From the NCBI GenBank assembly GCA_947468665.1, contig CANILH010000023.1:1-39513 (forward strand): 39,513 nucleotides of DNA, given 5' to 3'. A program made the position numbers and the translations under genes. This DNA is from Oligoflexales bacterium (lineage in GTDB: Bacteria; Bdellovibrionota_B; Oligoflexia; Oligoflexales; RGVZ01). How positions within the stretch are numbered: position 1 is the stretch's first letter; every line of letters starts with the position of its first letter. Positions 6,584 to 9,554 of the stretch are shown here, piece after piece. The notes beneath the pieces are model-generated. The model saw only the letters and a program-made list of their open reading frames with translations, did no database searches and was not told the origin of the DNA.

Positions 6584-7447
6584 TCAGGCCATCGCTACGC
6601 CGATAATTACGAGCGCCGCGAATAAGTAACCCTGGACGGAGAATAACTCCCCCCACATTACCGCTGCGATCGCCACGGATACGACAGGTTCGACCATGGT
6701 CATGATGGCAGCCCTACTTGTTTCAACAAGCTTGAGGCCGGCGCCGTAGAGCAGATAGGGGAGATAGGTGCATACCAAACCCATCAGCAGACTTGCGGTT
6801 ATGGTCTCTGCTTTGAGACTCACAAGATGGCTGACCGTTTCTGAAACTGACGAGGGACTTGTTATCAAAATAACCGACAAAATCGCGAGTGACGCCACGG
6901 GAAACGCGATCATGTAAACCACAACTGGGTGGGTGTGACGAAAAAAAACTTTTCCAGAAATATAAAAGCTCGCGTAACTCAGTCCGGACAAAAGTCCCCA
7001 CACCAGGGCGGGCGCGGAAAAGTCCGCGTTCCCACCCCAAAGACAAATTCCCAAAACACCCGAGAATGCCAGTGAAAGTGACAGACGTTGCTTCAGCGGG
7101 ATTGATTCTTTAAAAAACAGAACACCAGCGATGTTCACCCAGATGGGAGCACTGTAAAGAAGAACTGACGCAAGCGCGGCGCCGCCGTAGCTGACCGCGT
7201 AGACAAAACTTCCCTCAAGAAGGGCGACGCCAAATAGCCCGAATAAAACAATGGCCGTGATTTGTTTCAGGCTGCAGGGTAGGGGGTGGCGATTGAACAG
7301 CCAATGAATGAAAAACGCGAGACCAGCGAAGGATCCTCTCCAAAACGCCGTTTCCAGAGGCAGCATGCCGCCAGCGAAAATAAGTTTACTCAAGGGGCCG
7401 ATGAGTCCCCATAAAGCGGCCGCGGAAAAAAGTAAAATGGGACCCAT
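6584..7447 (-). CDS. EamA-family (DMT superfamily) transporter
   Basis: The 287-residue protein consists almost entirely of about ten hydrophobic segments arranged as two five-helix EamA repeats. The first repeat begins ALWGLIGPLSKLIF with ETAFWRG. The second begins LVWGLLSGLSYASFYI and ends with the MVEPVVSVAIAAVMWGE box near residue 255. The DMT superfamily exports metabolites or amino acids at the inner membrane, but the substrate cannot be read from sequence. It lies 41 bases downstream of the carbonic-anhydrase-like gene on the same strand, so the two may be co-transcribed. The C-terminus is short and ends in VIIGVAMA. Confidence 0.85.
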   Translation of the reverse strand: MGPILLFSAAALWGLIGPLSKLIFAGGMLPLETAFWRGSFAGLAFFIHWLFNRHPLPCSLKQITAIVLFGLFGVALLEGSFVYAVSYGGAALASVLLYSAPIWVNIAGVLFFKESIPLKQRLSLSLAFSGVLGICLWGGNADFSAPALVWGLLSGLSYASFYISGKVFFRHTHPVVVYMIAFPVASLAILSVILITSPSSVSETVSHLVSLKAETITASLLMGLVCTYLPYLLYGAGLKLVETSRAAIMTMVEPVVSVAIAAVMWGELFSVQGYLFAALVIIGVAMA

Positions 7448-7488: not shown

Positions 7489-8433
7489 TTAGCGGTTACT
7501 GCGGCCAAGTACCCGTTTACCCAGGGAATAGACGGGACGCACGTTTGATTTTTGCAGCAAGACGAGTTTGTCGATGGTTTTTTTGGAGGTGGTGATTTGA
7601 TCGGTAAAAATAATCCATTTGGCGTCAGGGAGGCAAGGCGGCGTGGTGGTTGAGCCGGTATAGGTCCAGTAGGTTCGCTTCGCTGGCAGCAGGCCCCCCC
7701 AGTTAACACGCTCTATGTCTTTAACCTCACCCTCCATGCGGGGCAGGTCAGTGGTAAGGTAGTTGATGAGCTCTGAAGGCTTGCCTGGCGTTACAAGAAA
7801 GGACAATAAGATTATTTTGCCTGTCACGGCGACATGCTCCAGCTGAATCTCCATCTCCCATGGCAGGGAGTTAACTCGGTGCTCGGATGGTGTTCTGAAC
7901 ATCACGTGGTGAAGGTCATAACGCTCGCCGTCCCATTCCATATAGCTGCCGTGATCAACTTCGCCCTGGACCGTCTCGTGGAGAAGTGTCATGTGCGTGA
8001 TGCCGTGGGTATAATAGAACTTGAGAGATTTCAGACTTTCGTCCAATTTCGCTCCGCTGATATCGATGGGGGATTGTCCTGTCTTTGCCCCGCAGGCCGC
8101 CCATTTTGTATTCAGGCCATTCCAATACCACGGAGCGAGATTACCCGTGTAACCCCAGTGTTCAAGGGGCTCGTTTTGTAATTCGTGGTCTGTCACATGT
8201 TGGGTGGATGCTTCGGACTTAGAGGAGGTTTGGCTCTCATGTTCCGCGGGAGTGTCGTTGCGGAGGTTTTTTAGGTCATGCTGGGCCGCGGCGGCGCGCT
8301 GCTCATCGGCCTCGATCGCGCGATTTGCCATATATTTGCCAGCGTACCAGACCCCGGTAAAAATCAAGCCGGAAATCGCCGCGCCACTAATCCACGCGGT
8401 GATTTGGTCAAAACCTGTAATTTTCATGCCCAT
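7489..8433 (-). CDS. Membrane-anchored alpha-carbonic-anhydrase-related protein lacking zinc ligands
   Basis: The start is set at ATG 8433, with GAGG 8 bases upstream; an upstream ATG at 8517 exists. The 314-residue product has a membrane segment near residues 12-34, a charged linker to about 88, and a full alpha-CA fold: HWGYTG, QSPIDI, RTPSEH, MEIQLEH, YTGSTTTPPC. In active enzymes zinc is held by two His of QFHFH and one in MExHLVH. Here these are Met (codon 7900-7902), Arg (7894-7896) and Gln (7843-7845). Hydration of CO2 is therefore not expected. This resembles the eukaryotic CA-related proteins that kept the fold as a binding domain. Its ligand is unknown; the anchor suggests the periplasm. 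Confidence 0.85.
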   Translation of the reverse strand: MGMKITGFDQITAWISGAAISGLIFTGVWYAGKYMANRAIEADEQRAAAAQHDLKNLRNDTPAEHESQTSSKSEASTQHVTDHELQNEPLEHWGYTGNLAPWYWNGLNTKWAACGAKTGQSPIDISGAKLDESLKSLKFYYTHGITHMTLLHETVQGEVDHGSYMEWDGERYDLHHVMFRTPSEHRVNSLPWEMEIQLEHVAVTGKIILLSFLVTPGKPSELINYLTTDLPRMEGEVKDIERVNWGGLLPAKRTYWTYTGSTTTPPCLPDAKWIIFTDQITTSKKTIDKLVLLQKSNVRPVYSLGKRVLGRSNR

Positions 8434-8578
8434 GGGCACTGCCTCACGTCGTTCGCTCAAAGGTTGGGTGAAGTTACTGCGGGGAGCGATTGGTACCAGT
8501 CTAATTTTCCTGCGCAATGCGGTCAGATGTCAACCAATAACCATTCTTTCTTTGGGAAATATTGTTTGGGATTGGTTA

Positions 8579-8630: not shown

Positions 8631-9554
8631 ATGGCAGACGCATTTCGAGTTTTGTTGGTGGACGATGAGCCTGAGATTGTCGAATACCTGAAAGTTGTTT
8701 TGGAGGGTCACGGTTTTGATTGTCTTGGAGTCAGAACTCCTGAGGAAGGCGTCGCCGCTGCGAATAAAGAAGCCTTCATGGCCATTGTTTCTGACATGAA
8801 AATGCCAAAGATGACCGGTCTTCAGATGATCGCCAAAATCAAGACCAGTACTCATAACGCGAGTACTCCGGTAATCATGCTCTCTGGGCATTTGACTGAT
8901 GATATGATGGCTGGTCTTGAGAAGTTGGGCATCATCAATGTTATGAGTAAGCCACCGGACATTGATATTCTGGTGCGGATTATACAAAAGACTTCCAAAC
9001 ACAAGACCAAAAAAACGGGCAAGATATATAATCCCGCAATCGTCAAATTGTTTCATGATGCCTTCGTTGGCACCGTAAAAGGCCATCTTGCTGAAAAGGT
9101 TATAGTTACAGCCTCTGAGGTCAATGAGTCCGCGCTGACGAATATTGAGTGCTGCGGTATGATTACGCTTTTGGGGCGACGTATGAGTGGTGTGTTGACT
9201 GTCTCATATGAGATTGGCTTTACCGCTGAATTCGCCAGGATTATGCTGGCCCGGGAAGTCGCTGCTCAGGAGCTGGAGATTTTCGAGACCTGCGCCGGTG
9301 AGATGGCGGAGCAGGTGGTACAGACATTTATACCAGGGCTCAAAGCACTTGGCCTTTACATTGAGCCCACCGCCCCACTTATCGTGCCTGGTCGTTATGC
9401 GGGGATTCCGCTGGCGGGAACTCAGCCACGGATTGTCGCGACAGCGACTTTGAATGGCAAAAATTGCTATCTTGAGTACGCGTTGGTGGATCTTGCGTCG
9501 GATTTCGCCGGCCAGGCGGACTCATCCGACGTTAAAATCATCCAGGATAGTTGA
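8631..9554 (+). CDS. Response regulator with C-terminal CheX-like domain
   Basis: Residues 5-120 are a receiver with D11/D12, phosphoacceptor D55 (SDMKMPKMTG) and K107 (SKPPD). Residues about 135-290 resemble CheX, the CheY-P phosphatase fold. CheC/CheX phosphatases use an ExxN motif; the aligned site here is E222-M-A-E225, so the asparagine is replaced by glutamate and phosphatase activity is doubtful. The domain may instead be regulatory or a dimerisation unit. The gene has its own extended -10 promoter and no kinase beside it. The last 17 bases overlap the end of the O-methyltransferase gene on the other strand. Confidence 0.8.
   Translation: MADAFRVLLVDDEPEIVEYLKVVLEGHGFDCLGVRTPEEGVAAANKEAFMAIVSDMKMPKMTGLQMIAKIKTSTHNASTPVIMLSGHLTDDMMAGLEKLGIINVMSKPPDIDILVRIIQKTSKHKTKKTGKIYNPAIVKLFHDAFVGTVKGHLAEKVIVTASEVNESALTNIECCGMITLLGRRMSGVLTVSYEIGFTAEFARIMLAREVAAQELEIFETCAGEMAEQVVQTFIPGLKALGLYIEPTAPLIVPGRYAGIPLAGTQPRIVATATLNGKNCYLEYALVDLASDFAGQADSSDVKIIQDS

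Follow-up and report, generated by a model that had tools for sequence, protein, structure and literature searches.

Introduction

Animals, apicomplexans and viruses all have carbonic anhydrase (CA)-related proteins, whose function has long been puzzling. In vaccinia D8 and RPTP-zeta the CA-like domain serves adhesion. The CA-related proteins (CARPs) of cnidarians have been described as "reinvented multiple times", with a trend toward R-H-Q at the zinc-ligand positions and a permissive pattern of R/H/Y-H/R-Q/H (PMC4981384). TgCA_RP of Toxoplasma gondii carries the triplet F/H/Q and is inactive, restoration of the histidines having restored no activity, and PfCA carries Gln119 (PMC5437132). RPTP-gamma, which is without the histidines, is a proposed bicarbonate sensor (PMC7541084), and the human CARP-MCT1 pair is a precedent for non-catalytic aid to a transporter (PMC6609565).

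Here we describe a protein of this kind from a freshwater Oligoflexales bacterium, a member of an order within the Bdellovibrionota, encoded in a window of 39,513 nucleotides (contig CANILH010000023.1; the window is the whole stretch of DNA that was analyzed). An initial reading of the DNA, made from the sequence alone, had known of no described bacterial group of such proteins; we likewise found none in the literature searched, in which subscription journals are thinly covered, and within that literature CA-related proteins are new as a bacterial group.

Gene, fold and membrane anchor

The gene occupies positions 7489..8433 of the minus strand, stop codon included, and encodes 314 amino acids in an intact frame; an alternative start (ATG at 8427) would give 312 amino acids, and the mechanical open reading frame from TTG at 8517 is longer. 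Its product matches Pfam Carb_anhydrase (PF00194) at 80.8 bits, well above the curated cut-off of 27, and its best phmmer match among solved bacterial α-CAs is 6eki (E 1.8e-34). Ten relatives went into an AlphaFold2 model, in which the domain block has pLDDT values mostly of 83-96, the whole-chain value of 75.6 being due to the anchor and linker, and the domain superposes on the α-CA 4xz5 with a TM score of 0.89, normalized by the target. Pfam, phmmer, AlphaFold2 and Foldseek thus agree on an α-CA domain at residues 91-310 (7504..8163, minus strand), which places the protein in the α-CA superfamily and bears out the sequence-only reading that the fold is kept.

Alignment with relatives places an N-terminal membrane anchor with the family motif DQxxAW at residues ~8-30 (8344..8412, minus strand), covered in the model by a continuous helix from 8 to 59 that looks uncleaved. 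The hydrophobic helix on which the sequence-only reading had based periplasmic display is therefore present, and the membrane topology and periplasmic orientation that would follow from it are supported by the retention of the Cys pair 114/267, which is invariant in extracellular α-CAs. Between anchor and domain lies a linker of low model confidence (8164..8343, minus strand) that is His-poor relative to active relatives (5/52 residues scored), and the chain closes with an RSNR motif (7492..7503, minus strand; alignment), which reads [KR]S[NTA]R in relatives. Elsewhere in the window, positions 8631-9554 encode a response regulator whose receiver domain matched Pfam and is followed by a C-terminal domain of ~180 residues that appears CheX-like by eye.

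The zinc site and its pocket

The ligand columns could be placed without gaps through the invariant TPSEH and MEIQLEH motifs. The alignment puts Met178 (7900..7902), Arg180 (7894..7896) and Gln197 (7843..7845), all on the minus strand, in the columns of the ligands His94, His96 and His119, respectively, just as had been read from the sequence alone. No alternative register bringing histidines to the zinc site was found in the alignment, and no other histidines fill it; an adjacent His-His pair (columns 91-92) is no conserved feature of the genus, column 92 being Arg in three of the four members. The protein has neither the His triad of catalytic α-CAs nor the H/H/Q triad of η-CAs, and the column of the proton shuttle His64 holds Glu. 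With all three zinc histidines absent, it falls within the operational definition of a CARP, an α-CA homologue without at least one of them. Retained columns include Glu106, Glu117, Thr199, Trp209 and the Cys pair.

The column of Val121, part of the CO2 pocket, is occupied by Glu199 (7837..7839, minus strand; alignment), and this column is Glu in all four members of the genus, in each of which it co-occurs with Arg in the column of His96. We infer that Arg96 would take the former place of a zinc ligand and that Glu121 would replace the hydrophobic floor of the pocket, so that the two may pair as buried charges and fill both the CO2 pocket and what was once the zinc site; Gln119 would keep a polar side chain, in contact with the retained Glu117. 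Based on these substitutions, the protein is very probably zinc-free and non-catalytic as a CA.

Ligand loss among Oligoflexales CAs

An α-CA was present in 33 of the 43 Oligoflexales genomes examined, and we aligned 125 CA domains for a read-out of the ligands, the set from within the order being assembled with no selection on them. Ninety-two domains are H/H/H and 33 are changed, and within the Oligoflexales most anchored CAs have lost ligands. Position 119 is Gln in 30 of the 33 changed sequences and His in three, and in all Oligoflexales members but one (L/H/H) it is Gln; position 96 takes only two residues, His in 24 and Arg in nine; position 94 is His in only two (H/H/Q, H/R/Q) and is otherwise Asp, Ser, Met, Val, Tyr, Phe, Leu, Arg, Asn, Thr, Ala or Gln. 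Glu106 and Trp209 are kept in all 33, and Thr199 and Glu117 in 32 each. As judged from these triplets, the bacterial proteins obey the CARP substitution rule and take it a step further at position 96, so that the likeness to eukaryotic CA-related proteins noted earlier is closer than had been proposed, extending to the same rule at three sites.

Homologues sharing like substitutions were found among the nearest relatives of the window protein: three genus-mates have orthologues of 42-58% identity, also without all three ligands (F/R/Q, F/R/Q and Y/R/Q). One of these genus-mates (G004) is Oligoflexales bacterium CANJQY010000087, and the other close matches are from Oligoflexales metagenome-assembled genomes. 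The host genome holds two further α-CAs, both with intact ligand triads.

A second Oligoflexales family (L002, L139, L145, L036, L169 and L170) also displays repeated ligand loss, with the triplets H/H/Q, L/H/Q, V/H/Q, S/H/Q and Y/H/Q. In L002 the CA domain lies behind a long hydrophobic N-terminal part, and L169, which keeps His94 and His96 beside Gln119, is a possible intermediate. The CA fragments of one genome (G042) were considered as a pseudogene, but they are two pieces split by an assembly gap (NN) and read S/H/Q. Outside the order, changed triplets were found in Citrobacter (D/H/Q), a Methylophilales genome (D/R/Q), a Shewanellaceae genome (R/R/Q) and some Alphaproteobacteria, a sample skewed by the presence of Gln119 in the scan query. 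The enterobacterial and methylotroph α-CAs with D/H/Q or D/R/Q are L084, L110 (Citrobacter), L117 and L111, and an Asp-His-Gln site in these could still hold a metal.

In a survey of α- and β-CAs, three genomes estimated to be 94-96% complete (G014, G025 and G026) had only ligand-changed α-CAs, and no β-CA was found in them. A link between the inactive state and β-CA content was sought, but some inactive-only genomes have a β-CA and others do not.

Repeated loss at one locus

A maximum-likelihood tree was built from 81 rows, with no animal sequences and with the three ligand columns masked. The anchored Oligoflexales CAs, the window protein among them, form a single Oligoflexales-only clade of 29 rows (support 96/92) in which active and changed forms are interleaved. 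The window protein belongs to a clade of ten members (96/88), all changed; its nearest relatives having lost ligands as well, it is no recent decay from an active homologue. On the 81 rows parsimony requires the triad state to change 15 times, six of them within the anchored clade, and puts the number for Gln119 at 12. A single origin of the changed forms within the anchored clade was rejected when their grouping was forced (AU p 2e-7). There were thus about six separate losses within the anchored family, a count made approximate by long branches and open forks in parts of the tree; parsimony by itself sets no direction for the individual changes.

About ten genomes share a syntenic block at the CA locus (YggS, YggT, an ABC transporter and an HNH nuclease), which lies beside active copies in G029, G010, G018 and G032 and beside changed copies in G006, G008, G009, G025, G026, G035 and G014. 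The same genes beside both kinds support their orthology; as a clue to function the block was rejected, since it does not distinguish active from inactive copies. Only two of the eight single-base nonsynonymous changes of a His codon yield Gln, and by this rough argument an unbroken Gln over approximately ten origins is unlikely by chance.

Selection and the linker

Purifying selection on the inactive genes is strong: pairs near enough to be measured have dN/dS values of 0.05, 0.07, 0.04 (genus g2) and 0.06 (L025/L132), similar to those of active pairs (0.06 and 0.19). For the window protein's own pairs synonymous sites are saturated (pS 0.83-0.89, pN 0.22-0.27), and the case that changed genes are kept by selection and are not decaying is made on these sister inactive genes, at 0.04-0.07. 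Together with the triple loss in the genus-mates, these values support the earlier suggestion of selection for a non-enzymatic role, and the window protein is very probably kept by selection for some role. The ten-member changed clade has 33 invariant columns, 32 of which hold residues also found in active enzymes; the sole exception is Gln119, which is absent from all 92 H/H/H enzymes.

The linkers of active and changed anchored copies differ in composition. All ten scored linkers of active copies contain 13-21% His, for example in HEEHGAKGE repeats, whereas 15 of 17 scored linkers of changed copies have <10%, the exceptions (L025 and L132) being recent losses. The difference is pronounced by a Mann-Whitney test in which rows are related by descent (p 6e-5); a comparison of phylogenetically independent pairs, of which there are only three, on starred branches, did not confirm it (p 0.5). 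Long His-rich repeat linkers were seen in the active anchored CAs L013, L019, L021, L022, L001 and L125-L127. The His-rich linker can reasonably be read as an aid to zinc loading or proton buffering that disappears after loss of the zinc site.

Frame-split relatives

In four relatives, L016 (R/H/Q), L030 (T/H/Q), L011 (M/H/Q) and L018 (V/H/Q), the anchor and linker are in a different frame from the CA domain. The frames meet at a run of ten A (nine in L030), at L016:1479, L030:1521, L011:343 and L018:1515 (minus strand); the L011 contig starts inside the linker, so its anchor lies outside the sequence. Positions L160:7663, L165:7390, L155:338 and L162:8087 (reverse complement) were also noted for this feature. 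Runs of at least nine A or T number 14 in 292 kb of surrounding DNA. The CA frames of the split genes are open and conserved (pN 0.22 and pS 0.84 for L011/L018; pN 0.35 and pS 0.88 for L016/L030), and bacterial transcriptional slippage is known to occur at runs of nine A (PMC1088944). Programmed slippage at the A9-A10 run in two lineages is the likely explanation; the alternatives are internal initiation giving a soluble CA domain and an assembly error in each of the four genomes.

Possible roles of the protein

Directly downstream, after a gap of 41 bp, lies a gene of the EamA family (drug/metabolite transporter superfamily; 6584..7447, minus strand; Pfam 121 bits). This pair of genes is kept in the host and its three genus-mates (G000, G001, G004 and G005), with gaps of ~41, -1, 4 and 21 bp, and the outer neighborhoods differ among the four; pst-type transporter genes precede it in G005, reading in one direction. 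No orthologue of either gene was found in the two other members of the genus, G002 and G003, the latter genome being only 66% complete. The pairing is confined to the window's genus, within which common ancestry could alone keep two genes adjacent, and inactive members elsewhere have other neighbors (a subtilase in genus g2). Nevertheless, adjacency and joint presence and absence favor a non-enzymatic periplasmic partner of the EamA transporter, on which the domain would most likely act by protein contact as an accessory. The transporter partnership taken by itself is tentative, with chances clearly below even. Human CARPs, which aid the lactate transporter MCT1 in a non-catalytic way, are comparable in principle.

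Our best explanation draws, at the level of sequence, on the ligand loss, the predicted fold, the repeated origin, purifying selection and the gene pairing. We give a probability of roughly 0.6 to the whole of it, namely that an α-CA scaffold has been rebuilt into a membrane-anchored, zinc-free, non-enzymatic binding module of the periplasm, a step with strong sequence support, and that this module, with a refilled pocket, serves as an EamA accessory.

The domain might instead bind peptidoglycan, glycans or an envelope protein, as a scaffold or adhesin independent of any transporter. The adhesive CA-like domains known elsewhere and the subtilase or other genes adjoining some members are consistent with such a role, but members have no neighbor in common and no extra binding domain, and we consider it rather unlikely. 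The putative Arg96-Glu121 plug favors surface contacts, in a scaffold or binding role, over an anion sensor, in which the pocket would bind bicarbonate/CO2 or a small anion without catalysis and the anchor would relay its state to membrane partners. Thr199, Glu106 and Glu117 persist in almost every changed member, an anion could be held by the pocket Arg, there are response-regulator genes in the vicinity, and RPTP-gamma offers a CA-like domain without histidines proposed to sense HCO3- (PMC7541084). However, Val121 to Glu adds negative charge to the pocket in this genus, the short N-terminus brings no cytoplasmic signaling domain, and the nearby regulator is common only with G004, so that a sensor is the less probable of these two roles and unlikely overall.

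A different or metal-independent catalysis in the same cavity, possibly zinc-free CO2 hydration, is very unlikely. Thr199 and Glu106 are kept, and genomes having only changed α-CAs and no β-CA, such as the three noted above, could be taken to favor it, but the CA survey covered α- and β-CAs in genomes that are not complete, both residue 121 and the proton shuttle have changed, and TgCA_RP (F/H/Q) stayed inactive even with its histidines restored (PMC5437132). The weakest alternative is a functionless, decaying duplicate of an active periplasmic CA, which the two intact α-CAs of the host might suggest but which is most improbable given the low dN/dS of inactive lineages, a triple loss common to four genus members at identities down to 42%, and the intact reading frame, disulfide, fold core and C-terminal motif.

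Comparison with known systems

The Oligoflexales are a natural experiment, with active and inactive orthologues at one locus and many losses under one rule, in which bacteria can be used to test what the CA fold does apart from catalysis and why Gln stands at position 119. It is conceivable, at odds a little short of even, that bacteria repeatedly made a tethered periplasmic α-CA into a zinc-free accessory by a fixed path (Gln119, loss of 94, Arg96) leading to the same end state as in animals and apicomplexans, and that slippage at A9-A10 runs controls anchored display in two lineages.

The active bacterial α-CAs 6eki, 4c3t and 4xz5 share with the window protein the fold, the disulfide and Glu106, Glu117, Thr199 and Trp209, but they have the zinc triad and His64 and have no anchor or linker. 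The RPTP-gamma and RPTP-zeta ectodomains similarly display a CA fold without the full His triad at the membrane; they are animal proteins fused to phosphatase domains, whereas the window protein has no intracellular domain. The Plasmodium falciparum η-CA, PfCA, has Gln119, and L169 from the Oligoflexales has the same H/H/Q triplet, but PfCA binds zinc because positions 94 and 96 are His, and in the window protein all three ligands are gone. TgCA_RP is membrane-anchored, and its F/H/Q resembles the bacterial x-H-Q forms; it differs from the window protein in being a eukaryotic, η-class-like protein with a GPI anchor and His96. The animal CARPs VIII, X and XI and the cnidarian CARPs have the α-CA fold, have lost zinc histidines and occur in secreted or anchored forms, with repeated origin and a triplet trend in cnidarians as in the bacterial proteins. 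In contrast to these, the window protein is bacterial, has an N-terminal membrane anchor and belongs to a genus in which all three ligands are lost, and the bacterial forms arose separately, within one bacterial order. Taken together, these comparisons support the view that the window protein is a putative bacterial counterpart, one of many, of the animal and apicomplexan CA-related proteins.
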